Shown piece by piece: positions 1 to 64,000 of a stretch of 64,000 nt of DNA; the first letter of the stretch is position 1; every line of letters begins with the position of its first letter. Location of the stretch: the NCBI RefSeq assembly GCF_052324685.1, contig NC_135212.1, positions 49,751,898-49,815,897 on the forward strand, given 5' to 3'. The translations under genes were made by a program, and so were the position numbers. Under the pieces are notes generated by a model. It saw only the letters and a list, made by a program, of their open reading frames with translations, was not told where the DNA came from and did not search any database. The stretch comes from Brachyhypopomus gauderio (taxonomy: Eukaryota; Chordata; Actinopteri; Gymnotiformes; Hypopomidae).

Positions 1-17
1 CTCTCGGCCACCTCATT
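1..17 (-). tRNA. tRNA-Ser(GCT) copy, 5' end only (cut by window edge)
   Basis: Only nucleotides 1-17 of the tRNA (acceptor 5' strand and start of the D arm) lie inside the window. The acceptor starts AAUGAGG instead of GACGAGG, so this is probably a class 12 copy with an A1:C72 mismatch. Confidence 0.8.
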
Positions 18-149
18 GTTTGTGGTGGTGTGTCGATTGCGATTTCAAAGATGCAAACACTTTCACAGCACAAAAGGAGGCTTATCTGACTTGTGGGTCC
101 TGCACTTATATCAGGAGACACGATTGTCAGAAATTAAAGAAAGCAACAC

Positions 150-231
150 CGACGAAGGTGGGATTCGAACCCACGCGTGCTATGCACAAGGGATTAGCAG
201 TCCATCGCCTTAACCTCTCGGCCACCTCGTC
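150..231 (-). pseudogene. tRNA-Ser(GCT) copy, class 8 (anticodon-stem mismatch)
   Basis: Full length with good A and B boxes. The 3' strand of the anticodon stem reads TCCCT instead of TCCAT, giving a U28:C42 mismatch. The loop CUGCUAA and anticodon GCU are kept, so it may still be transcribed. Confidence 0.75.
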
Positions 232-363
232 AATTACAGTTGTGTGTCGATTGCGATTTCAAAGATGCAAACACTTTCACAGCACAAAAGGAGGCTTATC
301 TGACTTGTGGGTCCTGCACTTACTTCAGGAGACACGATTGTCAGAAATTAAAGAAAACAACAC

Positions 364-445
364 CGACAAATGTGGTATTCAAACCCACGCAAGCAAAGCA
401 CAATGGATTAGCAGTCCATTGCCTTAACCTCTTGGCTACCTCGTC
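364..445 (-). pseudogene. tRNA-Ser(GCT) copy, class 5 (T-arm decay)
   Basis: The T arm has C56U and A61, so the invariant G53:C61 pair is lost, and 7:66 is mismatched. The D arm carries A9 and A13 but still fits the A-box consensus. This copy has extra changes in the variable arm and A26, making it the most decayed class 5 member together with 15556-15637. Confidence 0.8.
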
Positions 446-577
446 GCTTGCGGTTTTGTGTCGATTGTGATTTCAAAGATGCAAACACTTTCACAGCACA
501 AAAGCAGCCGTATCTGACTTGTGGGTCCTGCACTTACACCAGGAGACACGATTGTCAGAAATTAAAAAAAGCAACAC

Positions 578-659
578 CGACGAAGGTGGGATTCGAACAC
601 ACGCGTGCTATGCACAATGGATAAGCAGTCCATCGCCTTAACCTCTCGGCCACCTCGTC
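578..659 (-). pseudogene. tRNA-Ser(GCT) copy, class 9 (U37, T-stem mismatch)
   Basis: The anticodon loop reads CUGCUUA: anticodon GCU is kept but position 37 is U instead of A. G52 is replaced by U opposite C62, breaking one T-stem pair. A T7 run follows the gene, so transcription could terminate properly. Confidence 0.75.
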
Positions 660-713
660 AATTACGGTTGTGTGTCGATTGCGATTTCAAAGATGCAAAC
701 ACTTTCACAACAC

Positions 714-717
714 AAAA
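714..717 (-). terminator. Backup TTTT about 75 nt downstream of the tRNA
   Basis: A TTTT run lies in nearly every spacer, about 75 nt after the upstream tRNA and about 55 nt before the next. For units without T6/T7 it is the first uninterrupted T4. It is lost near 38160 and lengthened to T6 at 56562-56567 and 60628-60633. Confidence 0.6.
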
Positions 718-777
718 GCAGGCTTGTCTGACTTGTGGGTCCTGCACTTACATCAGGAGACACGATTGTCAGAAATT

Positions 778-784
778 AAAAAAA
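778..784 (-). terminator. Canonical Pol III terminator, T7
   Basis: Seven consecutive T on the transcribed-like strand, starting 8 nt after G73 of the 792-873 gene. About 27 units have this T7 form and about 32 have a shifted T6 form. Confidence 0.85.
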
Positions 785-802
785 GCAACACCGACGAAGG
801 TG

Positions 803-813
803 GGATTCGAACC
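803..813 (-). promoter_or_regulatory. Pol III B box (reference copy)
   Basis: Nucleotides 61-71 of the gene read GGTTCGAATCC, a perfect eukaryotic B box. It lies 42 nt from the A box. Class 3 (C56A) and class 5 (C56U) copies destroy it. Confidence 0.9.
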
Positions 814-855
814 CACGCGTGCAAAGCACAATGGATTAGCAGTCCATCGCCTTAA

Positions 856-866
856 CCTCTCGGCCA
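856..866 (-). promoter_or_regulatory. Pol III A box (reference copy)
   Basis: Nucleotides 8-18 of the tRNA read TGGCCGAGAGG, a full match to the TRGYNNARNNG consensus for TFIIIC binding. It is intact in classes 1, 2, 3, 8, 10 and 11, and degenerate in class 4, where R15 and the GG of the D loop are changed. Confidence 0.9.
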
Positions 867-991
867 CCTCGTCAATTATGGTTGTGTGTCGATAGCAATT
901 TCAAAGAAGCAAGCACTTTCACAGCACAAAAGAAGGCCTTTCTGACTTGTGGGTCCTGTAGTTACAGCAGGAGACACGATTGTCAGAAATT

Positions 992-998
992 AAAGAAA
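992..998 (-). terminator. Interrupted terminator TTTCTTT (typical of class 1)
   Basis: At the place where other units have T7, a single C splits the run into two T3 tracts. Interrupted T tracts are known as inefficient Pol III stops. This is the majority state of the array (about four fifths of units by eye). Confidence 0.55.
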
Positions 999-1005
999 GC
1001 AACAC

Positions 1006-1087
1006 CGACGAAGGTGGGATTCGAACCCACGCGTGCTATGCACAATGGATTAGCAGTCCATCGCCTTAACCTCTCGGCCACCTCGTC
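1006..1087 (-). tRNA. tRNA-Ser(GCT), class 1, intact (AUA variable loop)
   Basis: Same fold as the 792-873 gene, but with variable arm GUGC-AUA-GCAC. All stems and both boxes are intact. The downstream stop is TTTCTTT (992-998), not a T run, so termination is expected to be weak. The 5' flank carries an exact ATGCAAAT octamer at 1121-1128. This is the most frequent class. Confidence 0.9.
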
Positions 1088-1120
1088 AATTACAGTTGTG
1101 TGTCGATTGCGATTTCAAAG

Positions 1121-1128
1121 ATGCAAAT
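1121..1128 (+). promoter_or_regulatory. Octamer-like ATGCAAAT in the 5' flank
   Basis: The exact POU-domain octamer lies 34-41 bp upstream of the 5' end of the 1006-1087 tRNA. Most units have ATGCAAAC or AAGCAAAC here. Function is unproven; it may be a chance one-base variant. Confidence 0.3.
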
Positions 1129-1219
1129 ACTTTCACAGCACAAAAGGAGGCTTATCTGACTTGTGGGTCCTGCACTTATATCAGGAGACACGATTGTCAG
1201 AAATTAAAGAAAGCAACAC

Positions 1220-1301
1220 CGACGAAGGTGGGATTCGAACCCACAAGTGCTATGCATAATGGATTAGCAGTCCATCGCCTTACCCTCTCGGCCACCTTGT
1301 C
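1220..1301 (-). pseudogene. tRNA-Ser(GCT) copy, class 6 (acceptor and D-loop changes)
   Basis: The acceptor 5' strand is GACAAGG, giving an A4:C69 mismatch. A D-loop U is replaced by G, and the variable-arm base is changed. The B box is intact. Confidence 0.75.
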
Positions 1302-1433
1302 GTTTGTGGTTGTGTGTCGATTGCGATTTCAAAGATGCAAACACTTTCACAGCACAAAAGAAGGCTTATCTGACTTGTGGGTCCTGCACTTACACCAGGA
1401 GACACGATTGTCAGAAATTAAAGAAAGCAACAC

Positions 1434-1515
1434 CGACGAAGGTGGGATTCGAACCCACGCGTGCTATGCACAATGGATTAGCAGTCCATCGCCTTAACCT
1501 CTCGGCCACCTCGTC
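1434..1515 (-). tRNA. tRNA-Ser(GCT), class 1, intact
   Basis: No deviation from the class 1 consensus. Its 5' flank begins GTGTGTGG on the plus strand instead of GTTTGTGG, a spacer variant that recurs in front of class 4 neighbours. Confidence 0.88.
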
Positions 1516-1647
1516 GTGTGTGGTTGTGTGTCGATAGCAATTTCAAAGAAGCAAACACTTTCACAGCACAAAAGAAGGCTTTTCTGACTTGTGGGTCCTG
1601 TAGTTACAGCAGGAGACACGATTGTCAGAAATTAAAGAAAGCAACAC

Positions 1648-1729
1648 CGACGAAGGTGGGATTCGAACACACACGTGCTATGCATAATGGATTAGCAGTC
1701 CATCGCCTTAATCTATCGGCCACCTTGTC
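1648..1729 (-). pseudogene. tRNA-Ser(GCT) copy, class 4 (A box degenerate)
   Basis: The D arm reads GGCCGATAGATTAAGG: R15 and the conserved GG of the D loop are lost, so the A box and D-loop/T-loop contact are broken. U52 breaks a T-stem pair and A4:C69 is mismatched. Unlikely to make a functional tRNA. Confidence 0.85.
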
Positions 1730-1861
1730 GTTTGTGCTTGTGTGTCGATTGCGATTTCAAAGATGCAAACACTTTCACAGCACAAAAGCAGCCGTATATG
1801 ACTTGTGGGTCCTGCACTTACAACAGGAGACACGATTGTCAGAAATTAAAGAAAGCAACAC

Positions 1862-1943
1862 CGACAAAGGTGGGATTCTAACCCACGCGTGCTATGCACA
1901 ATGGATTAGCAGTCCATCCCCTTAACCTCTCGGCCACCTCGTC
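1862..1943 (-). pseudogene. tRNA-Ser(GCT) copy, class 3 (C56A, G10:G25)
   Basis: The T loop reads UUAGAAU, so invariant C56 (which pairs with G19) and the B box core are lost. A G10:G25 mismatch is also present, and U69 makes a wobble with G4. Confidence 0.82.
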
Positions 1944-2075
1944 GTTTGTGGTTGTGTGTCGATTGCGATTTCAAAGATGCAAACACTTTCACAGCACAAA
2001 AGGAGGCTTATCTGACTTGTGGGTCCTGCACTTATATCAGGAGACACGATTGTCAGAAATTAAAGAAAGCAACAC

Positions 2076-2157
2076 CGACGAAGGTGGGATTCGAACCCAC
2101 GCGTGCTATGCACAATGGATTAGCAGTCCATCGCCTTAACCTCTCGGCCACCTCGTC
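2076..2157 (-). tRNA. tRNA-Ser(GCT), class 1, intact
   Basis: Consensus class 1 gene followed by TTTCTTT. The 5' flank carries the AATTACAG spacer start. Confidence 0.88.
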
Positions 2158-2289
2158 AATTACAGTTGTGTGTCGATTGCGATTTCAAAGATGCAAACAC
2201 TTTCACAGCACAAAAGCAGCCGTATATGACTTGTGGGTACTGCACTTACAACAGGAGACACGATTGTCAGAAATTAAGGAAAGCAACAC

Positions 2290-2371
2290 CGACGAAGGTG
2301 GGATTCGAACCCACGCGTGCTATGCACAATGGATTAGCAGTTCATCGCCTTAACCTCTCGGCCACCTCGTC
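2290..2371 (-). pseudogene. tRNA-Ser(GCT) copy, class 14 (A30:C40)
   Basis: The anticodon stem 5' strand reads AUGAA, giving an A30:C40 mismatch next to the loop. Everything else is class 1. The downstream tract is TTTCCTT, weaker still. Recurs at 17482-17563. Confidence 0.7.
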
Positions 2372-2503
2372 AATTACAGTTGTGTGTCGATTGCGATTTC
2401 AAAGATGCAAACACTTTCACAGCACAAAAGGAGGCTTATCTGACTTGTGGGTCCTGCACTTACTTCAGGAGACACGATTGTCAGAAATTAAAGAAAACAA
2501 CAC

Positions 2504-2585
2504 CGACGAATGTGGTATTCAAACCCACGCGTGCAAAGCACAATGGATTAGCAGTCCATCGCCTTAACCTCTTGGCTACCTCGTC
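2504..2585 (-). pseudogene. tRNA-Ser(GCT) copy, class 5 (T-arm decay)
   Basis: Typical class 5: G53:A61 mismatch, C56U, A66 opposite G7. The variable loop is UUU, as in class 2, so the class probably descends from a class 2-like copy. Confidence 0.82.
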
Positions 2586-2717
2586 GCTTGTGGTTTTGTG
2601 TCGATTGCGATTTCAAAGATGCAAACACTTTCACAGCACAAAAGCAGCCGTATCTGACTTGTGGGTACTGCACTTACACCAGGAGACACGATTGTCAGAA
2701 ATTAAAGAAAGCAACAC

Positions 2718-2799
2718 CGACGAAGGTGGGATTCGAACCCACGCGTGCTATGCATAATGGATTAGCAGTCCATCTCCTTAACCTCTCGGCCACCTCGTC
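2718..2799 (-). pseudogene. tRNA-Ser(GCT) copy, class 7 (G10:A25)
   Basis: C25 is replaced by A, breaking the top D-stem pair; the variable arm ends AUGC rather than GUGC. Both boxes are intact, so transcription is possible. Confidence 0.65.
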
Positions 2800-2931
2800 A
2801 ATTACGGTTGTGTGTCGATTGCGATTTCAAAGATGCAAATACTTTCACAGCACAAAAGGAGGCTTATCTGACTTGTGGGTCCTGCACTTATATCAGGAGA
2901 CACGATTGTCAGAAATTAAAGAAAGCAACAC

Positions 2932-3013
2932 CGACGAAGGTGGGATTCGAACCCACAAGTGCTATGCATAATGGATTAGCAGTCCATCGCCTTACCCTCT
3001 CGGCCACCTTGTC
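2932..3013 (-). pseudogene. tRNA-Ser(GCT) copy, class 6
   Basis: Same lesions as 1220-1301, exactly eight units away; part of the 8-unit duplication 1070-2240 / 2782-3952. Confidence 0.75.
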
Positions 3014-3145
3014 GTTTGTGGTTGTGTGTCGATTGCGATTTCAAAGATGCAAACACTTTCACAGCACAAAAGAAGGCTTATCTGACTTGTGGGTCCTGCA
3101 CTTACACCAGGAGACACGATTGTCAGAAATTAAAGAAAGCAACAC

Positions 3146-3227
3146 CGACGAAGGTGGGATTCGAACCCACGCGTGCTATGCACAATGGATTAGCAGTCCA
3201 TCGCCTTAACCTCTCGGCCACCTCGTC
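3146..3227 (-). tRNA. tRNA-Ser(GCT), class 1, intact
   Basis: Eight-unit duplicate of 1434-1515, including the GTGTGTGG flank variant. Confidence 0.88.
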
Positions 3228-3359
3228 GTGTGTGGTTGTGTGTCGATAGCAATTTCAAAGAAGCAAACACTTTCACAGCACAAAAGAAGGCTTTTCTGAC
3301 TTGTGGGTCCTGTAGTTACAGCAGGAGACACGATTGTCAGAAATTAAAGAAAGCAACAC

Positions 3360-3441
3360 CGACGAAGGTGGGATTCGAACACACACGTGCTATGCATAAT
3401 GGATTAGCAGTCCATCGCCTTAATCTATCGGCCACCTTGTC
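3360..3441 (-). pseudogene. tRNA-Ser(GCT) copy, class 4
   Basis: Eight-unit duplicate of 1648-1729 with the same A-box and T-stem lesions. Confidence 0.83.
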
Positions 3442-3573
3442 GTTTGTGCTTGTGTGTCGATTGCGATTTCAAAGATGCAAACACTTTCACAGCACAAAAG
3501 CAGCCGTATATGACTTGTGGGTCCTGCACTTACAACAGGAGACACGATTGTCAGAAATTAAAGAAAGCAACAC

Positions 3574-3655
3574 CGACAAAGGTGGGATTCTAACCCACGC
3601 GTGCTATGCACAATGGATTAGCAGTCCATCCCCTTAACCTCTCGGCCACCTCGTC
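3574..3655 (-). pseudogene. tRNA-Ser(GCT) copy, class 3
   Basis: Eight-unit duplicate of 1862-1943: C56A, G10:G25 and G4:U69. Confidence 0.82.
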
Positions 3656-3787
3656 GTTTGTGGTTGTGTGTCGATTGCGATTTCAAAGATGCAAACACTT
3701 TCACAGCACAAAAGGAGGCTTATCTGACTTGTGGGTCCTGCACTTATATCAGGAGACACGATTGTCAGAAATTAAAGAAAGCAACAC

Positions 3788-3869
3788 CGACGAAGGTGGG
3801 ATTCGAACCCACGCGTGCTATGCACAATGGATTAGCAGTCCATCGCCTTAACCTCTCGGCCACCTCGTC
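3788..3869 (-). tRNA. tRNA-Ser(GCT), class 1, intact
   Basis: Eight-unit duplicate of 2076-2157; consensus sequence. Confidence 0.88.
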
Positions 3870-4001
3870 AATTACAGTTGTGTGTCGATTGCGATTTCAA
3901 AGATGCAAACACTTTCACAGCACAAAAGCAGCCGTATATGACTTGTGGGTACTGCACTTACACCAGGAGACACGATTGTCAGAAATTAAAGAAAGCAACA
4001 C

Positions 4002-4083
4002 CGACGAAGGTGGGATTCGAACCCACGCGTGCTATGCATAATGGATTAGCAGTCCATCTCCTTAACCTCTCGGCCACCTCGTC
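4002..4083 (-). pseudogene. tRNA-Ser(GCT) copy, class 7 (G10:A25)
   Basis: Same D-stem lesion as 2718-2799. The 5' flank starts AATCACGG, a spacer variant found next to the class 10-11 pair. Confidence 0.65.
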
Positions 4084-4215
4084 AATCACGGTTGTGTGTC
4101 GATTGCAATTTCAAAGATGCAAAGACTTTCACAGCACAAAAGGAGGCTTGTCTGACTTGTGGGTCCTGCACTTACATCAGGAGACACGATTGTCAGAAAT
4201 TTAAAAAAGCAACAC

Positions 4216-4297
4216 CGACGAAGGTGGGATTCGAACCCACGCGATCTATGCAAAATGGATAAGCAGTCCATCACCTTAACCTCTAGGCCACCTCGTC
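4216..4297 (-). tRNA. Variant tRNA-Ser(GCT), class 10 (U13, U37) with T6 terminator
   Basis: This is a distinct subtype: U13 (GGCCUAGAGG), a G10:U25 wobble, a shortened variable stem and U37 in the loop CUGCUUA. Both boxes are intact and a T6 stop follows, so it looks transcribable. U37 would remove the A that carries t6A in tRNAs reading ANN codons. This copy also has GATC in place of GTGC near the variable arm, unlike later class 10 copies. Confidence 0.65.
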
Positions 4298-4429
4298 GTT
4301 TGTGGTTGTGTGTCGATAGCAATTTCAAAGAAGCAAACACTTTCACAGCACAAAAGAAGGCTTTTTTGACTTGTGGGTCCTGCACTTACATCAGGAGACA
4401 CGATTGTCAGAAATTTAAAAAAGCAACAC

Positions 4430-4511
4430 CGACGAAGGTGGGATTCGAACCCACGCGTGCTATGCAAAATTGATTAGCAGTCCATCACCTTAACCTCTAG
4501 GCCACCTCGTC
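4430..4511 (-). pseudogene. tRNA-Ser(GCT) copy, class 11 (U13 subtype, G29:A41)
   Basis: Shares U13, G10:U25 and the T6 stop with its class 10 neighbour but has A37 and an A41 that breaks the middle of the anticodon stem. Classes 10 and 11 usually sit side by side and are amplified together. Confidence 0.72.
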
Positions 4512-4643
4512 GTTTGTGGTTGTTTGTCGATTGCGATTTCAAAGATGCAAACACTTTCACAGCACAAAAGAAGGCTTATCTGACTTGTGGGTCCTGCACT
4601 TACACCAGGAGACACGATTGTCAGAAATTAAAGAAAGCAACAC

Positions 4644-4725
4644 CGACGAAGGTGGGATTCTAACCCACGCGTGCTATGCACAATGGATTAGCAGTCCATC
4701 GCCTTAACCTCTCGGCCACCTCGTC
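4644..4725 (-). pseudogene. tRNA-Ser(GCT) copy, class 3 (C56A only)
   Basis: Only the B box/T loop is damaged; all stems are as in class 1. It starts the 6-unit block. Confidence 0.8.
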
Positions 4726-4857
4726 AATTACGGTTGTGTGTCGATTGCGATTTCAAAGATGCAAATACTTTCACAGCACAAAAGGAGGCGTATCTGACTT
4801 GTGGGTCCTGCACTTATATCAGGAGACACGATGGTCAGAAATTAAAGAAAGCAACAC

Positions 4858-4939
4858 CGACGAAGGTGGGATTCGAACCCACGCGTGCTATGCACTATGG
4901 ATTAGCAGTCCATCGCCTTAACCTCTCGGCCACCTCGTC
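4858..4939 (-). tRNA. tRNA-Ser(GCT), class 1, variable-arm variant
   Basis: Intact except that the base before the variable stem is A instead of U (plus-strand GCACTATGG). This marker labels copies 4858, 6142, 9351, 10635 and 20050 and shows they share a recent origin. Confidence 0.87.
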
Positions 4940-5071
4940 GTTTGTGGTTGTGTGTCGATAGCAATTTCAAAGAAGCAAACACTTTCACAGCACAAAAGAA
5001 GGCTTTTCTGACTTGTGGGTCCTGTAGTTACAGCAGGAGACACGATTGTCAGAAATTAAAGAAAGCAACAC

Positions 5072-5153
5072 CGACGGAGGTGGGATTCGAACACACACGT
5101 GCTATGCATAATGGATTAGCAGTCCATCGCCTTAATCTATCGGCCACCTTGTC
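5072..5153 (-). pseudogene. tRNA-Ser(GCT) copy, class 4 with A5:C68
   Basis: Class 4 lesions plus C68 opposite A5 in the acceptor, a sub-lineage marker shared by many later class 4 copies. Confidence 0.83.
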
Positions 5154-5285
5154 GTTTGTGCTTGTGTGTCGATTGCGATTTCAAAGATGCAAACACTTTC
5201 ACAGCACAAAAGCAGCCGTATATGACTTGTGGGTCCTGCACTTACAACAGGAGACACGATTGTCAGAAATTAAAGAAAGCAACAC

Positions 5286-5367
5286 CGACGAAGGTGGGAT
5301 TCGAACCCACGCATGCTATGCACAATGGATTAGCAGTCCATCGCCTTAACCTCTCGGCCACCTCATT
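5286..5367 (-). pseudogene. tRNA-Ser(GCT) copy, class 12 (A1:C72)
   Basis: The 5' strand starts AAUGAGG, so the terminal pair is A1:C72 and 3:70 is a U:G wobble. This end is critical for RNase P and SerRS, so function is doubtful. The neighbouring spacer has GTGGTGG instead of GTGGTTG. Confidence 0.7.
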
Positions 5368-7853
5368 GTTTGTGGTGGTGTGTCGATTGCGATTTCAAAG
5401 ATGCAAACACTTTCACAGCACAAAAGGAGGCTTATCTGACTTGTGGGTCCTGCTCTTATATCAGGAGACACGATTGTCAGAAATTAAAGAAAGCAACACC
5501 GACGAAGGTGGGATTCGAACCCACGCGTGCTATGCACAAGGGATTAGCAGTCCATCGCCTTAACCTCTCGGCCACCTCGTCAATTACAGTTGTGTGTCGA
5601 TTGCGATTTCAAAGATGCAAACACTTTCACAGCACAAAAGGAGGCTTATCTGACTTGTGGGTCCTGCACTTACTTCAGGAGACACGATTGTCAGAAATTA
5701 AAGAAAACAACACCGACAAATGTGGTATTCAAACCCACGCGTGCAAAGCACAATGGATTAGCAGTCCATCGCCTTAACCTCTTGGCTACCTCGTCGCTTG
5801 CGGTTTTGTGTCGATTGTGATTTCAAAGATGCAAACACTTTCACAGCACAAAAGCAGCCGTATCTGACTTGTGGGTCCTGCACTTACACCAGGAGACACG
5901 ATTGTCAGAAATTAAAGAAAGCAACACCGACGAAGGTGGGATTCTAACCCACGCGTGCTATGCACAATGGATTAGCAGTCCATCGCCTTAACCTCTCGGC
6001 CACCTCGTCAATTACGGTTGTGTGTCGATTGCGATTTCAAAGATGCAAATACTTTCACAGCACAAAAGGAGGCGTATCTGACTTGTGGGTCCTGCACTTA
6101 TATCAGGAGACACGATGGTCAGAAATTAAAGAAAGCAACACCGACGAAGGTGGGATTCGAACCCACGCGTGCTATGCACTATGGATTAGCAGTCCATCGC
6201 CTTAACCTCTCGGCCACCTCGTCGTTTGTGGTTGTGTGTCGATAGCAATTTCAAAGAAGCAAACACTTTCACAGCACAAAAGAAGGCTTTTCTGACTTGT
6301 GGGTCCTGTAGTTACAGCAGGAGACACGATTGTCAGAAATTAAAGAAAGCAACACCGACGGAGGTGGGATTCGAACACACACGTGCTATGCATAATGGAT
6401 TAGCAGTCCATCGCCTTAATCTATCGGCCACCTTGTCGTTTGTGCTTGTGTGTCGATTGCGATTTCAAAGATGCAAACACTTTCACAGCACAAAAGCAGC
6501 CGTATATGACTTGTGGGTCCTGCACTTACAACAGGAGACACGATTGTCAGAAATTAAAGAAAGCAACACCGACGAAGGTGGGATTCGAACCCACGCATGC
6601 TATGCACAATGGATTAGCAGTCCATCGCCTTAACCTCTCGGCCACCTCATTGTTTGTGGTGGTGTGTCGATTGCGATTTCAAAGATGCAAACACTTTCAC
6701 AGCACAAAAGGAGGCTTATCTGACTTGTGGGTCCTGCTCTTATATCAGGAGACACGATTGTCAGAAATTAAAGAAAGCAACACCGACGAAGGTGGGATTC
6801 GAACCCACACGTGCTATGCACAAGGGATTAGCAGTCCATCGCCTTAACCTCTCGGCCACCTCGTCAATTACAGTTGTGTGTCGATTGCGATTTCAAAGAT
6901 GCAAACACTTTCACAGCACAAAAGGAGGCTTATCTGACTTGTGGGTCCTGCACTTACTTCAGGAGACACGATTGTCAGAAATTAAAGAAAACAACACCGA
7001 CAAATGTGGTATTCAAACCCACGCGTGCAAAGCACAATGGATTAGCAGTCCATCGCCTTAACCTCTTGGCTACCTCGTCGCTTGCGGTTTTGTGTCGATT
7101 GTGATTTCAAAGATGCAAACACTTTCACAGCACAAAAGCAGCCGTATCTGACTTGTGGGTCCTGCACTTACACCAGGAGACACGATTGTCAGAAATTAAA
7201 AAAAGCAACACCGACTAAGGTGGGATTCGAACACACGCGTGCTATGCACAATGGATAAGCAGTCCATCGCCTTAACCTCTCGGCCACCTCGTCAATTACG
7301 GTTGTGTGTCGATTGCGATTTCAAAGAAGCAAGCACTTTCACAGCACAAAAGAAGGCCTTTCTGACTTGTGGGTCCTGTAGTTACAGCAGGAGACACGAT
7401 TGTCAGAAATTAAAGAAAGCAACACCGACGAAGGTGGGATTCGAACCCACGCGTGCAAAGCACAATGGATTAGCAGTCCATCGCCTTAACCTCTCGGCCA
7501 CCTCGTCAATTATGGTTGTGTGTCGATAGCAATTTCAAAGAAGCAAGCACTTTCACAGCACAAAAGAAGGCCTTTCTGACTTGTGGGTCCTGTAGTTACA
7601 GCAGGAGACACGATTGCCAGAAATTAAAGAAAGCAACACCGACGAAGGTGGGATTCGAACCCACGCGTGCTATGCACAATGGATTAGCAGTCCATCGCCT
7701 TAACCTCTCGGCCACCTCGTCAATTACGGTTGTGTGTCGATTGCGATTTCAAAGATGCAAATACTTTCACAGCACAAAAGGAGGCTTATCTGACTTGTGG
7801 GTCCTGCACTTATATCAGGAGACACGATTGTCAGAAATTAAAGAAAGCAACAC

Positions 7854-7935
7854 CGACGAAGGTGGGATTCGAACCCACGCGTGCTATGCACAATGGATTA
7901 GCAGTCCATTGCCTTAACCTCTCGGCCACCTCGTC
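7854..7935 (-). tRNA. tRNA-Ser(GCT), class 1 with A26
   Basis: Intact apart from G26 to A between the D and anticodon stems. Also at 12347, 21762 and 51506. Confidence 0.82.
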
Positions 7936-8067
7936 GTTTGTGGTTGTGTGTCGATAGCAATTTCAAAGAAGCAAACACTTTCACAGCACAAAAGCAGGCG
8001 TATATGACTTGTTGGTCCTGCACTTACAACAGGAGACACGATTGTCAGAAATTAAAGAAAGCAACAC

Positions 8068-8149
8068 AGACGAAGGTGGGATTCGAACCCACGCGTGCTA
8101 TGCACAATGGATTAGCAGTCCATCCCCTTAATCTCTTGGCCACCTCGTC
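8068..8149 (-). pseudogene. tRNA-Ser(GCT) copy, class 14 (discriminator U73)
   Basis: The discriminator is U instead of G; G73 is a known recognition element for eukaryotic SerRS. G10:G25 and D-loop changes are also present. Recurs at 12561 and 51720. Confidence 0.7.
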
Positions 8150-8495
8150 GTTTGTGGTTGTGTGTCGATTGCGATTTCAAAGATGCAAACACTTTCACAG
8201 CACAAAAGGAGGCTTATCTGACTTGTGGGTCCTGCACTTATATCAGGAGACACGATTGTCAGAAATTAAAGAAAGCAACACCGACGAAGGTGGGATTCGA
8301 ACCCACGCGTGCTATGCACAATGGATTAGCAGTCCATCGCCTTAACCTCTCGGCCACCTCGTCAATTACAGTTGTGTGTCGATTGCGATTTCAAAGATGC
8401 AAACACTTTCACAGCACAAAAGGAGGCTTATCTGACTTGTGGGTCCTGCACTTATATCAGGAGACACGATTGTCAGAAATTAAAGAAAACAACAC

Positions 8496-8577
8496 CGACG
8501 AAGGTGGGATTCGAACCCATGCGTGCTATGCACAATGGATTAGCAGTCCATCGCCTTAACCTCTCGGCCACCTCGTC
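8496..8577 (-). pseudogene. tRNA-Ser(GCT) copy, class 14 (A49:C65)
   Basis: G49 to A opens the first T-stem pair; otherwise class 1. It precedes the 213-bp unit. Recurs at 12989 and 22190. Confidence 0.65.
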
Positions 8578-8829
8578 AATTACAGTTGTGTGTCGATTGC
8601 GATTTCAAAGATGCAAACACTATCACAGCACAAAAGGAGGCTTATCTGATTGTGGGTCCTGCACTTATATCAGGAGACACGATTGTCAGAAATTAAAGAA
8701 AGCAACACCGACGAAGGTGGGATTCGAACCCACGCGTGCTATGCACAATGGATTAGCAGTCCATCGCCTTAACCTCTCGGCCACCTCGTCAATTACAGTT
8801 GTGAGTCGATTGCGATTTCAAAGATGCAA

Positions 8830-13336: not shown

Positions 13337-13415
13337 CAAAAGGAGGCTTATCTGACTTGTGGGTCCTGCACTTACTTCAGGAGACACGATTGTCAGAAAT
13401 TAAAAAAAGCAACAC

Positions 13416-15192: not shown

Positions 15193-18100
15193 CTCTCGGC
15201 CACCTCATTGTTTGTGGTGGTGTGTCGATTGCGATTTCAAAGATGCAAACACTTTCACAGCACAAAAGGAGGCTTATCTGACTTGTGGGTCCTGCACTTA
15301 TATCAGGAGACACGATTGTCAGAAATTAAAGAAAGCAACACCGACGAAGGTGGGATTCGAACCCACGCGTGCTATGCACAAGGGATTAGCAGTCCATCGC
15401 CTTAACCTCTCGGCCACCTCGTCAATTACAGTTGTGTGTCGATTGCGATTTCAAAGATGCAAACACTTTCACAGCACAAAAGGAGGCTTATCTGACTTGT
15501 GGGTCCTGCACTTACTTCAGGAGACACGATTGTCAGAAATTAAAGAAAACAACACCGACAAATGTGGTATTCAAACCCACGCAAGCAAAGCACAATGGAT
15601 TAGCAGTCCATTGCCTTAACCTCTTGGCTACCTCGTCGCTTGCGGTTTTGTGTCGATTGTGATTTCAAAGATGCAAACACTTTCACAGCACAAAAGCAGC
15701 CGTATCTGACTTGTGGGTCCTGCACTTACACCAGGAGACACGATTGTCAGAAATTAAAAAAAGCAACACCGACGAAGGTGGGATTCGAACACACGCGTGC
15801 TATGCACAATGGATAAGCAGTCCATCGCCTTAACCTCTCGGCCACCTCGTCAATTACGGTTGTGTGTCGATTGCGATTTCAAAGATGCAAACACTTTCAC
15901 AACACAAAAGCAGGCTTGTCTGACTTGTGGGTCCTGCACTTACATCAGGAGACACGATTGTCAGAAATTAAAAAAAGCAACACCGACGAAGGTGGGATTC
16001 GAACCCACGCGTGCAAAGCACAATGGATTAGCAGTCCATCGCCTTAACCTCTCGGCCACCTCGTCAATTATGGTTGTGTGTCGATAGCAATTTCAAAGAA
16101 GCAAGCACTTTCACAGCACAAAAGAAGGCCTTTCTGACTTGTGGGTCCTGTAGTTACAGCAGGAGACACGATTGTCAGAAATTAAAGAAAGCAACACCGA
16201 CGAAGGTGGGATTCGAACCCACGCGTGCTATGCACAATGGATTAGCAGTCCATCGCCTTAACCTCTCGGCCACCTCGTCAATTACAGTTGTGTGTCGATT
16301 GCGATTTCAAAGATGCAAATACTTTCACAGCACAAAAGGAGGCTTATCTGACTTGTGGGTCCTGCACTTATATCAGGAGACACGATTGTCAGAAATTAAA
16401 GAAAGCAACACCGACGAAGGTGGGATTCGAACCCACAAGTGCTATGCATAATGGATTAGCAGTCCATCGCCTTACCCTCTCGGCCACCTTGTCGTTTGTG
16501 GTTGTGTGTCGATTGCGATTTCAAAGATGCAAACACTTTCACAGCACAAAAGAAGGCTTATCTGACTTGTGGGTCCTGCACTTACACCAGGAGACACGAT
16601 TGTCAGAAATTAAAGAAAGCAACACCGACGAAGGTGGGATTCGAACCCACGCGTGCTATGCACAATGGATTAGCAGTCCATCGCCTTAACCTCTCGGCCA
16701 CCTCGTCGTGTGTGGTTGTGTGTCGATAGCAATTTCAAAGAAGCAAACACTTTCACAGCACAAAAGAAGGCTTTTCTGACTTGTGGGTCCTGTAGTTACA
16801 GCAGGAGACACGATTGTCAGAAATTAAAGAAAGCAACACCGACGAAGGTGGGATTCGAACACACACGTGCTATGCATAATGGATTAGCAGTCCATCGCCT
16901 TAATCTATCGGCCACCTTGTCGTTTGTGCTTGTGTGTCGATTGCGATTTCAAAGATGCAAACACTTTCACAGCACAAAAGCAGCCGTATATGACTTGTGG
17001 GTCCTGCACTTACAACAGGAGACACGATTGTCAGAAATTAAAGAAAGCAACACCGACAAAGGTGGGATTCTAACCCACGCGTGCTATGCACAATGGATTA
17101 GCAGTCCATCCCCTTAACCTCTCGGCCACCTCGTCGTTTGTGGTTGTGTGTCGATTGCGATTTCAAAGATGCAAACACTTTCACAGCACAAAAGGAGGCT
17201 TATCTGACTTGTGGGTCCTGCACTTATATCAGGAGACACGATTGTCAGAAATTAAAGAAAGCAACACCGACGAAGGTGGGATTCGAACCCACGCGTGCTA
17301 TGCACAATGGATTAGCAGTCCATCGCCTTAACCTCTCGGCCACCTCGTCAATTACAGTTGTGTGTCGATTGCGATTTCAAAGATGCAAACACTTTCACAG
17401 CACAAAAGCAGCCGTATATGACTTGTGGGTACTGCACTTACAACAGGAGACACGATTGTCAGAAATTAAGGAAAGCAACACCGACGAAGGTGGGATTCGA
17501 ACCCACGCGTGCTATGCACAATGGATTAGCAGTTCATCGCCTTAACCTCTCGGCCACCTCGTCAATTACAGTTGTGTGTCGATTGCGATTTCAAAGATGC
17601 AAACACTTTCACAGCACAAAAGGAGGCTTATCTGACTTGTGGGTCCTGCACTTACTTCAGGAGACACGATTGTCAGAAATTAAAGAAAACAACACCGACG
17701 AATGTGGTATTCAAACCCACGCGTGCAAAGCACAATGGATTAGCAGTCCATCGCCTTAACCTCTTGGCTACCTCGTCGCTTGTGGTTTTGTGTCGATTGC
17801 GATTTCAAAGATGCAAACACTTTCACAGCACAAAAGCAGCCGTATCTGACTTGTGGGTACTGCACTTACACCAGGAGACACGATTGTCAGAAATTAAAGA
17901 AAGCAACACCGACGAAGGTGGGATTCGAACCCACGCGTGCTATGCATAATGGATTAGCAGTCCATCTCCTTAACCTCTCGGCCACCTCGTCAATTACGGT
18001 TGTGTGTCGATTGCGATTTCAAAGATGCAAATACTTTCACAGCACAAAAGGAGGCTTATCTGACTTGTGGGTCCTGCACTTATATCAGGAGACACGATTG

Positions 18101-51159: not shown

Positions 51160-51291
51160 GTTTGTGGTTGTGTGTCGATAGCAATTTCAAAGAAGCAAGC
51201 ACTTTCACAGCACAAAAGAAGGCCTTTCTGACTTGTGGGTCCTGTAGTTACAGCAGGAGACACGATTGTCAGAAATTAAAGAAAGCAACAC

Positions 51292-51373
51292 CGACGAAGG
51301 TGGGATTCGAACCCACGCGTGCTATGCACAATGGATTAGCAGTCCATCGCCTTAACCTCACGCCCACCTCGTC
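51292..51373 (-). pseudogene. tRNA-Ser(GCT) copy, class 14 (A14U, G11)
   Basis: Invariant A14 is U and C11 is G, breaking the D stem and A box. Seen only once. Confidence 0.72.
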
Positions 51374-52361: not shown

Positions 52362-52443
52362 CGACGAAGGTGGGATTCGAACCCACACGTGCAAAGCACA
52401 ATGGATTAGCAGTCCATCGCCTTAACCTCTCGGCCACCTCGTC
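52362..52443 (-). tRNA. tRNA-Ser(GCT), class 2, intact with T7
   Basis: Duplicate of 45300-45381 with the same CACACG marker. Confidence 0.91.
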
Positions 52444-52575
52444 AATTATGGTTGTGTGTCGATTGTGATTTCAAAGATGCAAACACTTTCACAGCACAAA
52501 AGCAGGCTTGTCTGACTTGTGGGTCCTGCACTTACATCAGGAGACACGATTGTCAGAAATTAAAAAAAGCAACAC

Positions 52576-52657
52576 CGACGAAGGTGGGATTCGAACCCAC
52601 GCGTGCAAAGCACAATGGATTAGCAGTCCATCGCCTTAACCTCTCGGCCACCTCGTC
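52576..52657 (-). tRNA. tRNA-Ser(GCT), class 2, intact with T7
   Basis: Duplicate of 45514-45595. Confidence 0.93.
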
Positions 52658-54287: not shown

Positions 54288-54369
54288 CGACGAAGGTGGG
54301 ATTCGAACCCACGCGTGCAAAGCACAATGGATTAGCAGTCCATCGCCTTAACCTCTCGGCCACCTCGTC
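54288..54369 (-). tRNA. tRNA-Ser(GCT), class 2, intact with T7
   Basis: Consensus class 2 gene. Its neighbour at 54074 is also class 2 but has the TTTCTTT stop, so terminator and gene body have been reassorted. Confidence 0.93.
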
Positions 54370-55571
54370 GTTTGTGGTTGTGTGTCGATAGCAATTTCAA
54401 AGAAGCAAGCACTTTCACAGCACAAAAGAAGGCCTTTCTGACTTGTGGGTCCTGTAGTTACAGCAGGAGACACGATTGTCAGAAATTAAAGAAAGCAACA
54501 CCGACGAAGGTGGGATTCGAACCCACAAGTGCTATGCATAATGGATTAGCAGTCCATCGCCTTACCCTCTCGGCCACCTTGTCGTTTGTGGTTGTGTGTC
54601 GATTGCGATTTCAAAGATGCAAACACTTTCACAGCACAAAAGAAGGCTTATCTGACTTGTGGGTCCTGCACTTACACCAGGAGACACAATTGTCAGAAAT
54701 TAAAGAAAGCAACACCGACGAAGGTGGGATTCTAACCCACGCGTGCTATGCACAATGGATTAGCAGTCCATCGCCTTAACCTCTCGGCCACCTCGTCGTG
54801 TGTGGTTGTGTGTCGATAGCAATTTCAAAGAAGCAAACACTTTCACAGCACAAAAGAAGGCTTTTCTGACTTGTGGGTCCTGTAGTTACAGCAGGAGACA
54901 CGATTGTCAGAAATTAAAGAAAGCAACACCGACGAAGGTGGGATTCGAACACACACGTGCTATGCATAATGGATTAGCAGTCCATCGCCTTAATCTATCG
55001 GCCACCTTGTCGTTTGTGCTTGTGTGTCGATTGCGATTTCAAAGATGCAAACACTTTCACAGCACAAAAGCAGCCGTATATTACTTGTGGGTCCTGCACT
55101 TACAACAGGAGACACGATTGTCAGAAATTAAAGAAAGCAACACCGACGAAGGTGGGATTCTAACCCACGCGTGCTATGCACAATGGATTAGCAGTCCATC
55201 CCCTTAACCTCTCGGCCACCTCGTCGTTTGTGGTTGTGTGTCGATTGCGATTTCAAAGATGCAAACACTTTCACAGCACAAAAGGAGGCTTATCTGACTT
55301 GTGGGTCCTGCACTTATATCAGGAGACACGATTGTCAGAAATTAAAGAAAGCAACACCGACGAAGGTGGGATTCGAACCCACGCGTGCTATGCACAATGG
55401 ATTAGCAGTCCATCGCCTTAACCTCTCGGCCACCTCGTCGTTTGTGGTTGTGTGTCGATAGCAATTTCAAAGAAGCAAACACTTTCACAGCACAAAAGAA
55501 GGCTTTTCTGACTTGTGGGTCCTGTAGTTACAGCAGGAGACACGATTGTCAGAAATTAAAGAAAGCAACAC

Positions 55572-55653
55572 CGACGGAGGAGGGATTCGAACACACACGT
55601 GCTATGCATAATGGATTAGCAGTCCATCGCCTTAACCTCTCGGCCACCTCGTC
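55572..55653 (-). pseudogene. Hybrid copy with extra T-stem lesion
   Basis: Class 4 3' half (C68, U52) joined to a consensus D arm, with a further T-stem change (GGAGG). Recurs at 59638. Confidence 0.72.
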
Positions 55654-57925
55654 GTTTGTGGTGGTGTGTCGATTGCGATTTCAAAGATGCAAACACTTTC
55701 ACAGCACAAAAGGAGGCTTATCTGACTTGTGGGTCCTGCACTTATATAAGGAGACACGATTGTCAGAAATTAAAGAAAGCAACACCGACGAAGGTAGGAT
55801 TCGAACCCACGCGTGCTATGCACAATGGATTAGCAGTCCATCGCCTTAACCTCTCGGCCACCTCGTCGTTTGTGGTTGTGTGTCGATAGCAATTTCAAAG
55901 AAGCAAACACTTTCACAGCACAAAAGCGGCCGTATATGACTTGTGGGTCCTGCACTTACAACAGGAGACACGATTGTCAGAAATTAAAGAAAGCCACACC
56001 GACGAAGGTGGGATTCGAACCCACGCGTGCTATGCACAATGGATTAGCAGTCCATCCCCTTAACCTCTCGGCCACCTCGTCGTTTGTGGTTGTGTGTCGA
56101 TTGCGATTTCAAAGATGCAAACACTTTCACAGCACAAAAGGAGGCTTATCTGACTTGTGGGTCCTGCACTTACATCAGGAGACACGATTGTCAGAAATTA
56201 AAGAAAGCAACACCGACGAAGGTGGGATTCGAACCCACGCGTGCTATGCACAATGGATTAGCAGTCCATCGACTTAACCTCTCGGCCACCTCGTCAATTA
56301 CGGTTGTGTGTCGATTGCGATTTCAAAGATGCAAACACTTTCACAGCACAAAAGGAGGCTTGTCTGACTTGTGGGTCCTGCACTTACATCAGGAGACACG
56401 ATTGTCAGAAATTTAAAAAAGCAACACCGACGAAGGTGGGATTCGAACCCACGCGAGCTATGCAAAATGGATAAGCAGTCCATCACCTTAACCTCTAGGC
56501 CACCTCGTCGTTTGTGGTTGTGTGTCGATAGCAATTTCAAAGAAGCAAACACTTTCACAGCAAAAAAGAAGGCTTTTTTGACTTGTGGGTCCTGCACTTA
56601 CATCAGGAGACACGATTGTCAGAAATTTAAAAAAGCAACACCGACGAAGGTGGGATTCGAACCCACGCGTGCTATGCAAAATTGATTAGCAGTCCATCAC
56701 CTTAACCTCTAGGCCACCTCGTCGTTTGTGGTTGTGTGTCGATTGCGATTTCAAACATGCAAACACTTTCACAGCACAAAAGAAGGCTTATCTGACTTGT
56801 GGGTCCTGCACTTACACCAGGAGACACGATTGTCAGAAATTAAAGAAAGCAACACCGACGAAGGTGGGATTCGAACCCACGCGTGCTATGCACAATGGAT
56901 TAGCAGTCCATCGCCTTAACCTCTCGGCCACCTCGTCAATTACGGTTGTGTGTCGATTGCGATTTCAAAGATGCAAATACTTTCACAGCACAAAAGGAGG
57001 CGTATCTGACTTGTGGGTCCTGCACTTATATCAGGAGACACGATGGTCAGAAATTAAAGAAAGCAACACCGACGAAGGTGGGATTCGAACCCACGCGTGC
57101 TATGCACAATGGATTAGCAGTCCATCGCCTTAACCTCTCGGCCACCTCGTCGTTTGTGGTTGTGTGTCGATAGCAATTTCAAAGAAGCAAACACTTTCAC
57201 AGCACAAAAGAAGGCTTTTCTGACTTGTGGGTCCTGTAGTTACAGCAGGAGACACGATTGTCAGAAATTAAAGAAAGCAACACCGACGGAGGTGGGATTC
57301 GAACACACACGTGCTATGCATAATGGATTAGCAGTCCATCGCCTTAATCTATCCGCCACCTTGTCGTTTGTGCTTGTGTGTCGATTGCGATTTCAAAGAT
57401 GCAAACACTTTCACAGCACAAAAGCAGCCGTATCTGACTTGTGGGTACTGCACTTACACCAGGAGACATGATTGTCAGAAATTAAAGAAAGCAACACCGA
57501 CGAAGGTGGGATTCGAACCCACGCGTGCTATGCACAATGGATTAGCAGTCCATCGCCTTAACCTCTCGGCCACCTCGTCAATTACGGTTGTGTGTCGATT
57601 GCGATTTCAAAGATGCAAATACTTTCACAGCACAAAAGGAGGCGTATCTGACTTGTGGGTCCTACACTTATATCAGGAGACACGATGGTCAGAAATTAAA
57701 GAAAGCAACACCGACGAAGGTGGGATTCGAACCCACGCGTGCTATGCACAATGGATTAGCAGTCCATCGCCTTAACCTCTCGGCCACCTCGTCGTTTGTG
57801 GTTGTGTGTCGATAGCAATTTCAAAGAAGCAAACACTTTCACAGCACAAAAGAAGGCTTTTCTGACTTGTGGGTCCTGTAGTTACAGCAGGAGACACGAT
57901 TGTCAGAAATTAAAGAAAGCAACAC

Positions 57926-58007
57926 CGACGGAGGTGGGATTCGAACCCACGCATGCTATGCACAATGGATTAGCAGTCCATCGCCTTAACCTCTCGGCCA
58001 CCTCGTT
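57926..58007 (-). pseudogene. Hybrid copy: A5:C68 and A1:C72
   Basis: Acceptor 3' strand of the class 4 type (C68), class 12-like middle, and 5' strand AACGAGG. Two acceptor mismatches make it unlikely to function. Recurs at 61992. Confidence 0.7.
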
Positions 58008-58567
58008 GTTTGTGGTGGTGTGTCGATTGCGATTTCAAAGATGCAAACACTTTCACAGCACAAAAGGAGGCTTATCTGACTTGTGGGTCCTGCTCTTATA
58101 TCAGGAGACACGATTGTCAGAAATTAAAGAAAGCAACACCGACGAAGGTGGGATTCGAACCCACGCGTGCTATGCACAAGGGATTAGCAGTCCATCGCCT
58201 TAACCTCTCGGCCACCTCGTCAATTACAGTTGTGTGTCGATTGCGATTTCAAAGATGCAAACACTTTCACAGCACAAAAGGAGGCTTATCTGACTTGTGG
58301 GTCCTGCACTTACTTCAGGAGACACGGTTGTCAGAAATTAAAGAAAACAACACCGACGAATGTGGTATTCAAACCCACGCGTGCAAAGCACAATGGATTA
58401 GCAGTCCATCGCCTTAACCTCTTGGCTACCTCGTCGCTTGCGGTTTTGTGTCGATTGCGATTTCAAAGATGCAAACACTTTCACAGCACAAAAGCAGGCT
58501 TGTCTGACTTGTGGGTCCTGCACTTACATCAGGAGACACGATTGTCAGAAATTAAAAAAAGCAACAC

Positions 58568-58649
58568 CGACGAAGGTGGGATTCGAACCCACGCGTGCAA
58601 AGCACAATGGATTAGCAGTCCATCGCCTTAACCTCTCGGCCACCTCGTC
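58568..58649 (-). tRNA. tRNA-Ser(GCT), class 2, intact with T7
   Basis: Consensus class 2 gene at the end of the 19-unit block. Confidence 0.93.
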
Positions 58650-58765
58650 GTTTGTGGTTGTGTGTCGATAGCAATTTCAAAGAAGCAAGCACTTTCACAG
58701 CACAAAAGAAGGCCTTTCTGACTTGTGGGTCCTGTAGTTACAGCAGGAGACACGATTGTCAGAAA

Positions 58766-61700: not shown

Positions 61701-62862
61701 AAAGGAGGCGTATCTGACTTGTGGGTCCTACACTTATATCAGGAGACACGATGGTCAGAAATTAAAGAAAGCAACACCGACGAAGGTGGGATTCGAACCC
61801 ACGCGTGCTATGCACAATGGATTAGCAGTCCATCGCCTTAACCTCTCGGCCACCTCGTCGTTTGTGGTTGTGTGTCGATAGCAATTTCAAAGAAGCAAAC
61901 ACTTTCACAGCACAAAAGAAGGCTTTTCTGACTTGTGGGTCCTGTAGTTACAGCAGGAGACACGATTGTCAGAAATTAAAGAAAGCAACACCGACGGAGG
62001 TGGGATTCGAACCCACGCATGCTATGCACAATGGATTAGCAGTCCATCGCCTTAACCTCTCGGCCACCTCGTTGTTTGTGGTGGTGTGTCGATTGCGATT
62101 TCAAAGATGCAAACACTTTCACAGCACAAAAGGAGGCTTATCTGACTTGTGGGTCCTGCTCTTATATCAGGAGACACGATTGTCAGAAATTAAAGAAAGC
62201 AACACCGACGAAGGTGGGATTCGAACCCACGCGTGCTATGCACAAGGGATTAGCAGTCCATCGCCTTAACCTCTCGGCCACCTCGTCAATTACAGTTGTG
62301 TGTCGATTGCGATTTCAAAGATGCAAACACTTTCACAGCACAAAAGGAGGCTTATCTGACTTGTGGGTCCTGCACTTACTTCAGGAGACACGGTTGTCAG
62401 AAATTAAAGAAAACAACACCGACGAATGTGGTATTCAAACCCACGCGTGCAAAGCACAATGGATTAGCAGTCCATCGCCTTAACCTCTTGGCTACCTCGT
62501 CGCTTGCGGTTTTGTGTCGATTGCGATTTCAAAGATGCAAACACTTTCACAGCACAAAAGCAGGCTTGTCTGACTTGTGGGTCCTGCACTTACATCAGGA
62601 GACACGATTGTCAGAAATTAAAAAAAGCAACACCGACGAAGGTGGGATTCGAACCCACGCGTGCAAAGCACAATGGATTAGCAGTCCATCGCCTTAACCT
62701 CTCGGCCACCTCGTCGTTTGTGGTTGTGTGTCGATAGCAATTTCAAAGAAGCAAGCACTTTCACAGCACAAAAGAAGGCCTTTCTGACTTGTGGGTCCTG
62801 TAGTTACAGCAGGAGACACGATTGTCAGAAATTAAAGAAAGCAACACCGACGAAGGTGGGAT
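58766..62862. repeat. 19-unit block, copy 2 of a tandem pair
   Basis: Class string for genes 58782-62634: 3 4 3 1 14 1 7 7 10 11 1 1 4 1 1 14 8 5 2, the same order as copy 1. Identity ends near 62862. Confidence 0.9.
62634..62715 (-). tRNA. tRNA-Ser(GCT), class 2, intact with T7
   Basis: 19-unit duplicate of 58568-58649. Confidence 0.93.
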
Positions 62863-63703
62863 TCGAACCCACGCGTGCTATGCACAATGGATTAGCAGTC
62901 CATCGCCTTAACCTCTCGGCCACCTCGTCGTGTGTGGTTGTGTGTCGATAGCAATTTCAAAGAAGCAAACACTTTCACAGCACAAAAGAAGGCTTTTCTG
63001 ACTTGTGGGTCCTGTAGTTACAGCAGGAGACACGATTGTCAGAAATTAAAGAAAGCAACACCGACGGAGGTGGGATTCGAACACACACGTGCTATGCATA
63101 ATGGATTAGCAGTCCATCGCCTTAACCTCTCGGCCACCTCGTTGTTTGTGGTGGTGTGTCGATTGCGATTTCAAAGATGCAAACACTTTCACAGCACAAA
63201 AGGAGGCTTATCTGACTTGTGGGTCCTGCTCTTATATCAGGAGACACGATTGTCAGAAATTAAAGAAAGCAACACCGACGAAGGTGGGATTCGAACCCAC
63301 GCGTGCTATGCACAAGGGATTAGCAGTCCATCGCCTTAACCTCTCGGCCACCTCGTCAATTACAGTTGTGTGTCGATTGCGATTTCAAAGATGCAAACAC
63401 TTTCACAGCACAAAAGGAGGCTTATCTGACTTGTGGGTCCTGCACTTACTTCAGGAGACACGGTTGTCAGAAATTAAAGAAAACAACACCGACGAATGTG
63501 GTATTCAAACCCACGCGTGCAAAGCACAATGGATTAGCAGTCCATCGCCTTAACCTCTTGGCTACCTCGTCGCTTGCGGTTTTGTGTCGATTGCGATTTC
63601 AAAGATGCAAACACTTTCACAGCACAAAAGCAGGCTTGTCTGACTTGTGGTTCCTGCACGTACATCAGGAGACACGATTGTCAGAAATTAAAAAAAGCAA
63701 CAC

Positions 63704-63785
63704 CGACGAAGGTGGGATTCGAACCCACGCGTGCAAAGCACAATGGATTAGCAGTCCATCGCCTTAACCTCTCGGCCACCTCGTC
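63704..63785 (-). tRNA. tRNA-Ser(GCT), class 2, intact with T7
   Basis: 5-unit duplicate of 62634-62715; the downstream spacer has two private changes (GGTTCCTGCACG). Confidence 0.92.
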
Positions 63786-63917
63786 GTTTGTGGTTGTGTG
63801 TCGATAGCAATTTCAAAGAAGCAAGCACTTTCACAGCACAAAAGAAGGCCTTTCTGACTTGTGGGTCCTGTAGTTACAGCAGGAGACACGATTGTCAGAA
63901 ATTAAAGAAAGCAACAC

Positions 63918-63999
63918 CGACGAAGGTGGGATTCGAACCCACGCGTGCTATGCACAATGGATTAGCAGTCCATCGCCTTAACCTCTCGGCCACCTCGTC
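63918..63999 (-). tRNA. tRNA-Ser(GCT), class 1, intact, last copy in window
   Basis: Consensus class 1 gene; its 5' end is one base from the window edge, so its upstream flank is not visible. Confidence 0.88.
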
Positions 64000-64000
64000 G

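Follow-up and report, generated by a model that had tools for sequence, protein, structure and literature searches.

A stretch of 64,000 nucleotides in the genome of Brachyhypopomus gauderio (the window; C2:49,751,898-49,815,897, where C2 is contig NC_135212.1 in a genome of 796.5 Mb in 840 contigs) raises the question of whether a tRNA gene repeated head to tail on this scale serves as a gene supply, as satellite DNA, or as both. An earlier note, made from the letters of the window, had described at least 299 tandem tRNA-Ser(GCT) genes in one orientation, repeated every 214 bp over more than 64 kb with one gene and one spacer per unit, and had read the locus as tRNA gene bank and satellite at once. 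The description of the window was borne out by ARAGORN and TRF, by which the whole of it (1-64000) is one unbroken tandem array of tRNA-Ser(GCT). All 299 ARAGORN calls, spanning 149-64000, were tRNA-Ser(GCT) on the minus strand, and each of the 299 genes has a cloverleaf with a long variable arm and a GCT anticodon (ARAGORN, Rfam). TRF returned a single array over 1-64000 with a period of 214, 299.1 copies and 92% matches. The 214-bp unit consists of an 82-nt gene and a 132-bp spacer, with one tRNA per unit, and the spacing between the starts of the 82-nt genes was 214 in 294 of 298 cases and 213 in 4 of 298. The variable arm in the array isodecoders is GTGCATAGCAC or GTGCTTTGCAC, and the array extends beyond both the left and the right window edge. 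The parts of the window needed below are as follows.

1..64000, minus strand: interior of the tRNA-Ser(GCT) tandem array, 214-bp unit, about 300 units (ARAGORN, TRF)
1..17, minus strand: 5' 17 bases of a 300th tRNA-Ser gene, severed by the left window edge
792..873, minus strand: sample high-scoring copy, 82-nt tRNA-Ser(GCT), 63.9 bits (ARAGORN and Rfam)
660..791, minus strand: sample 132-bp spacer, between the genes at 578-659 and 792-873
43588..43669, minus strand: sample decayed copy, 30.1 bits against the Rfam threshold of 29

The Rfam gathering score for tRNA (29 bits) was reached by 149/149 copies in 1-32000 and by 150/150 in 32001-64000, so that the near-total scoring as pseudogenes against which the earlier note had set its claim was seen with neither Rfam nor ARAGORN (299/299 above threshold). 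Counted from both tables, 237 of the 299 scores were at least 50 bits and 116 of 299 at least 60 bits, and the lowest six were 30.1. When positions 1-2200 were searched for Rfam families other than tRNA, all scored below their own thresholds.

The units are similar to one another without being uniform. Pairwise identity among the 298 complete window units had a mean of 0.929 and a minimum of 0.841, and the number of distinct units was 120 when they were cut at the 82-nt gene and 124 when cut at ARAGORN's own starts. Their order is far from random: 208/298 units lie within repeated runs of at least 3 units, and 28 runs of at least 3 identical units recur, compared with a mean of 0.045 in 200 shuffles of unit order, in which the longest run was never above 3. 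The longest repeated run in the window comprises 26 units, identical over all 5,564 bases, and the main blocks are these.

233..5796, no strand: 26-unit block, 5,564 bp, every letter equal to 15425-20988
15425..20988, no strand: second copy of the 26-unit block, 71 units from the first
54799..58650, no strand: 18-unit block, recurring at 58865-62716 with a lag of 19 units

A long head-to-tail array, homogenisation and block turnover, the marks of a satellite, are thus all found here. Combined with the GCT anticodon kept by all 295 window units analysed, this turnover fits the dual description as gene bank and satellite.

On C2 the array starts at ~49,480,558 and ends between 49,905,000 and 49,908,000, a length of ~425 kb, in keeping with the claim of more than 64 kb, and it holds ~1,930 units once interruptions are deducted; ~120 kb of it entered the unit analysis and the remainder was inferred from pattern matches. 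The first interruption is a ~5.0-kb insert (C2 ~49,484,226 to 49,489,234) that adjoins TTAA and contains a DDE_Tnp_1_7 transposase region (PF13843, E 2e-59), which we take to be piggyBac or piggyBac-like. In the pattern matches, a second gap (49,508,901-49,514,556) has a match spacing of 5,655 bases, the same as that of the first insert, which suggests that the insert was copied along with its units. At the right, the array reaches 49,899,192, restarts near 49,901,199 and is still present at 49,904,001-49,905,000; it was not found in probes from 49,908,001 onward. The sequence of this right-hand interruption (~49,899,193-49,901,198) has ~80% identical sequence in common with the first insert, in reverse orientation, and also carries a 112-base tandem repeat with copies ~99-100% identical (C2 ~49,899,485-49,900,396).

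A second tRNA-Ser(GCT) array, of similar length and in the same orientation as that on C2, was found on contig C40 (2.26 Mb). It starts between 51,000 and 53,717 and ends between 471,000 and 500,001, and a probe at C40 450,001 was empty of array units. The right flanks of the two arrays are identical over 237/237 bases and over 1,500/1,500 bases, with a 33-base length difference between both points. The left flanks do not align, a left-flank probe of C40 matching the left flank of C2 in inverted pieces only (98% over 609 bases, 93% over 401 bases). The identical right flanks (C2 from 49,922,764, C40 from 500,001) adjoin arrays with differing unit populations: 113/254 of the other C2 units were equal to some window unit compared with 0/73 of the C40 units, the base frequency difference between C2 and C40 units being at most 0.3 at every site. 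The 73 C40 units came from small probes, with L054 omitted and ~two units counted double as a result of a ~450-base overlap between L053 and L055. As judged from these sequences, the C40 array may be either the other haplotype of the C2 locus or a paralogue or neighbouring array. When the 3,443 and 3,533 minus-strand matches to two patterns were divided by the matching share of sampled units, the extrapolated genome total was ~3,700-3,900 units; two further patterns gave totals of 3,280-3,550 and 3,760-4,790 units.

Arrays on two contigs beside an identical flank (237/237 and 1,500/1,500 bases) could also be produced if the assembler had inflated a short cluster. We regard such an artefact as very improbable, since the window alone contains 120 distinct unit types among 298 in irregular block order, flanks are present on both sides, a transposon insert is accompanied by another gap whose flanking matches are likewise spaced 5,655 bases apart, and the unit populations on C2 and C40 differ (113/254 vs 0/73 equal to a window unit).

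To describe the condition of the copies, a unit was called intact when it preserved each of 24 stem pairs and each of 15 positions taken as invariant. The sample comprised 622 units, with 295 from the window, 254 from elsewhere on C2 and 73 from C40; ungapped phasing had retained 295 of the 298 complete window units, and the array pieces L001-L008 and L028-L033 stand outside the unit statistics. By this definition 240/622 units were structurally intact (100/295 in the window, 108/254 in the rest of C2, 32/73 on C40). At least one broken stem pair or altered invariant position was found in 195/295 window units, and 382/622 overall were not fully intact. The earlier count of 299 genes consequently holds for recognisable tRNA copies and overstates the number of working genes. 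The anticodon was GCT in 295/295 window units, 253/254 units in the rest of C2 and 68/73 on C40. The other 5/73 C40 units are without a GCT anticodon, and within C2:49,816,000-49,825,999 one array copy has a changed anticodon and reads as tRNA-Cys(GCA).

The commonest tRNA sequence, present in 155/622 units, is intact. Among distinct units the intact share was 0.344, above the mean of 0.267 and the maximum of 0.322 obtained in 200 runs in which an equal number of changes was placed at random, an excess that is weak because the copies are related. For the RNA polymerase III terminator (T4 or longer), T4 was found in the first 18 nt of the trailer in 151/622 units and was absent there in 471/622, and in 467/622 units the first T4 lies ~74 nt beyond the gene. 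Near T4 was rarer in intact than in broken copies (31/240 vs 120/382, p = 1e-7; not significant among distinct units, p = 0.29). A nearby T4 was accordingly rejected as an indicator that a copy works, since it is depleted rather than enriched in intact units. A literature search found no papers on unconventional Pol III terminators.

Variation was compared between the tRNA and the spacer across the 273 distinct units sampled on C2 and C40, in tests that count related copies as independent. The tRNA showed 1.18 non-CpG variants per site and the spacer 1.17 (p = 1.0); with CpG included, all distinct variants per site were 1.38 and 1.21. A reduced substitution load in the tRNA part was accordingly rejected, distinct variants per site being not lower than in the spacer, and pairwise diversity was slightly lower in the tRNA (0.061) than in the spacer (0.077). 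Among 69 stem variants, 51 were stem-breaking, compared with 83% expected at random, and the stem-breaking variants occurred at frequencies no lower than those of variants in the spacer. Given this, and the equal non-CpG variation in tRNA and spacer, no sign of selection acting on individual copies is seen. A C-to-T or G-to-A change was present at 22/22 CpG bases and at 48/81 other C/G (p = 7e-5, in the same 273 units), a pattern that we read as probable germline CpG methylation with drift of single copies.

These features would also be expected if the array were a mostly silent, methylated satellite derived from tRNA genes, spreading by unequal exchange and contributing no meaningful amount of tRNA, with the real tRNA-Ser(GCT) genes being few and either missed or unassembled. 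We consider this unlikely, although it draws on much of the same evidence: the equal non-CpG variation (1.18 and 1.17), the CpG deamination (22/22 vs 48/81) as a sign of germline methylation, the 382/622 units that are not fully intact, the 471/622 without near T4, and an Arabidopsis Ser/Tyr cluster that is described as silent in most tissues (PMC12308677). The same paper, however, indicates that methylated tRNA repeats can be active, the Arabidopsis cluster being switched on despite methylation (PMC12308677). In addition, the commonest sequence is intact, the intact share exceeds, if weakly, that of random placement, and no intact alternative gene was detected with the patterns tried, among the matches listed.

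The search for such an alternative covered the assembled sequence. An exact match to the vertebrate-type tRNA-Ser(GCT) core occurs outside the arrays in two places only, on C3 and C14, and both copies are damaged. The copy on C3 carries numerous changes, its T loop lacks the customary GA, and one additional base precedes the 3' strand of the acceptor; the C14 match ends past the variable arm, and the 5' acceptor strand is missing. Neither was called by ARAGORN, and their Rfam scores (35.0 and 31.1 bits) lie above the threshold of 29. A tRNA-Lys(TTT) call (L052 1251-1322, 48.6 bits) lies on C14 ~160 bases before the truncated tRNA-Ser fragment. Relaxed patterns gave 2 forward matches and 2,483, 3,443 and 3,533 reverse matches; the forward count is a clean test of extra genes because every array copy seen is in reverse, and the 2 forward matches are presumably the C3 and C14 copies, which would add no further gene. 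Among the matches listed in one relaxed-pattern search, the contigs were C2, C3, C14 and C40. A vertebrate-type 3' end, with up to one mismatch, gave 4 matches, all inside the array at C40 422,729-428,533, and a 5' part with GAGTGG gave one, the C14 fragment. With the patterns tried, which presuppose a non-divergent anticodon arm, no intact tRNA-Ser(GCT) was found outside the arrays in the assembled sequence, the minus-strand search being among the matches listed.

As a control, the core of tRNA-Ser(NGA) gave 4 matches, all AGA and all on C16; since there are just 4, the amplification is not common to tRNA-Ser(NGA). The four lie as two pairs (9,962,110 and 9,982,460; 10,467,281 and 10,481,888), in sharp contrast with tRNA-Ser(GCT). 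The spacer pattern gave 2,963 matches, all on the minus strand, the first 100 of 2,963 being all on C2. A dispersed tRNA-derived SINE was rejected, since the 59 matches to a spacer-gene variant were confined to the minus strands of C2 (35) and C40 (24).

The dispersed copies bear on a further possibility, that the array is maternal only, active in oogenesis and silent in the body, with a separate dispersed set of somatic genes, as proposed for zebrafish. There, the isodecoders of the egg and early embryo come from repetitive regions and the late isodecoders are scattered (PMC11417395). The host here is likewise a vertebrate, and its genome carries tRNA genes repeated in tandem, as maternal arrays do. 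However, the dispersed somatic set that an exclusively maternal array requires was not found, the matches listed including just two damaged relatives, which argues against a purely maternal role unless the set was missed. We think this possibility improbable.

With moderate confidence, we favor the interpretation that tRNA-Ser(GCT) has been amplified into a satellite-like array in which most, and possibly all, of the genes for the tRNA reading the serine codons AGC and AGU reside. A vertebrate tRNA-Ser(GCT) gene would have been amplified head to tail, and unequal exchange and multi-unit block duplication would both enlarge and homogenise the array, with exchange spreading good and bad copies alike. 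Redundancy would relax selection on each copy, so that single copies decay while a large minority remain intact. Internal promoters would allow RNA polymerase III to transcribe the intact copies, and the array would act as a reservoir for most or all tRNA-Ser(GCT). High demand in oogenesis and the early embryo is a likely reason for the expansion, by analogy, because the isodecoders of zebrafish eggs map to repetitive regions and Xenopus oocyte tRNA genes are reported to be tandem. Phosvitin is biased to AGY codons for serine, and a more speculative idea is that the array may have grown to support a reproductive protein of this kind, rich in serine encoded by AGY.

Because no undamaged copy was detected outside the arrays, an essential gene may reside in satellite-like DNA. 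More tentatively, a satellite array might be the one source of an essential vertebrate isoacceptor, no intact copy being dispersed elsewhere as a reserve. Every cell would then depend on a locus subject to the growth, contraction and decay typical of satellite DNA, possibly with differing unit populations on two haplotypes. Highly repeated tRNA genes are often filtered out as non-genes, and here the repeats are the sole intact candidates detected for essential decoding, so that the question of supply is directly testable by tRNA sequencing. Codon-specific tRNA supply would be tied to satellite turnover, and array length, methylation and AGC/AGU decoding are therefore open to joint study in one animal.

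The Xenopus tRNA repeat is a mixed multi-tRNA unit. It resembles the present array as a vertebrate tandem tRNA repeat, probably meeting high early demand, and differs in that expression is known there, whereas the present array has a single isoacceptor and is known from sequence alone. Large tRNA clusters are known in teleosts, and the long arm of chromosome 4 in zebrafish, also a fish, is similar in that its repetitive regions hold a very large number of tRNA genes, with nearly all pairs parallel (PMC11417395, PMC11075544, PMC2888827). Most zebrafish pairs, however, combine different tRNAs, and isodecoders are also found dispersed, whereas here each 214-bp unit has one gene of a single isoacceptor and no intact dispersed copy was detected; one of these reports argues against discarding highly repeated tRNA genes as non-genes (PMC11417395). 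Maize tRNASAT_ZM (91.95 kb, chr4L) is similar in being described as a tRNA-containing satellite in one array; it differs in being from a plant and ~4.6 times shorter (PMC10335936). The non-coding RNA arrays of Hydractinia are similar in having evenly spaced tandem tRNA copies with similar spacers in an animal (PMC11067881).

In Entamoeba tandem arrays are the main supply of tRNA genes, as is proposed here, but the arrays are built from 25 different units, each containing as many as 5 tRNA genes separated by short tandem repeats (PMC2652664); a multi-tRNA unit of this type was rejected for the present array, which has one tRNA per unit and in which TRF finds the 214-base period alone. The Arabidopsis cluster is similar in its tandem, Ser-containing tRNA genes, methylated there, and differs in being from a plant, with Ser and Tyr genes together and silence in most tissues (PMC12308677). 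The human 1q23.3 tRNA variable number tandem repeat shares a vertebrate host and copy-number turnover, but has a 7.3-kb unit and 9-43 units per allele (PMC4041453). The earlier contrast, by which known arrays mix several tRNAs in a unit, is thus right in part, and has to be qualified by the reported 91.95-kb maize satellite and the tandem tRNA repeats of Hydractinia, Xenopus, zebrafish and Arabidopsis. Among the matches listed in the open-licence literature, none described an array this large built from a single isoacceptor in a vertebrate; the present array differs from those known in its scale, in having one tRNA per unit and in that no intact dispersed backup was detected.

The surroundings of the C2 array were also inspected. 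The contig ends at 49,948,280, and a location of the array at the chromosome end was rejected, since the last 4 kb of C2 are without a telomere array (TTAGGG 0 times, CCCTAA 2 times); this reading is also opposed by C40, which runs far beyond the shared flank. Relatives of three vertebrate genes lie to the left of the array: at 0.8 Mb an exon like that of NMDA receptor 2C, at 0.2 Mb an exon resembling heparan sulfate 3-O-sulfotransferase 3A1, and at ~30 kb a gene for a Kunitz/I-set/NTR protein, presumably WFIKKN. Repeats in the sequence pieces L017 and L025 further suggest that the vertebrate host is probably a teleost. Some 9-12 kb left of the array (C2 ~49,468,000-49,471,660), a long run of diverged tandem repeat copies was seen by eye.
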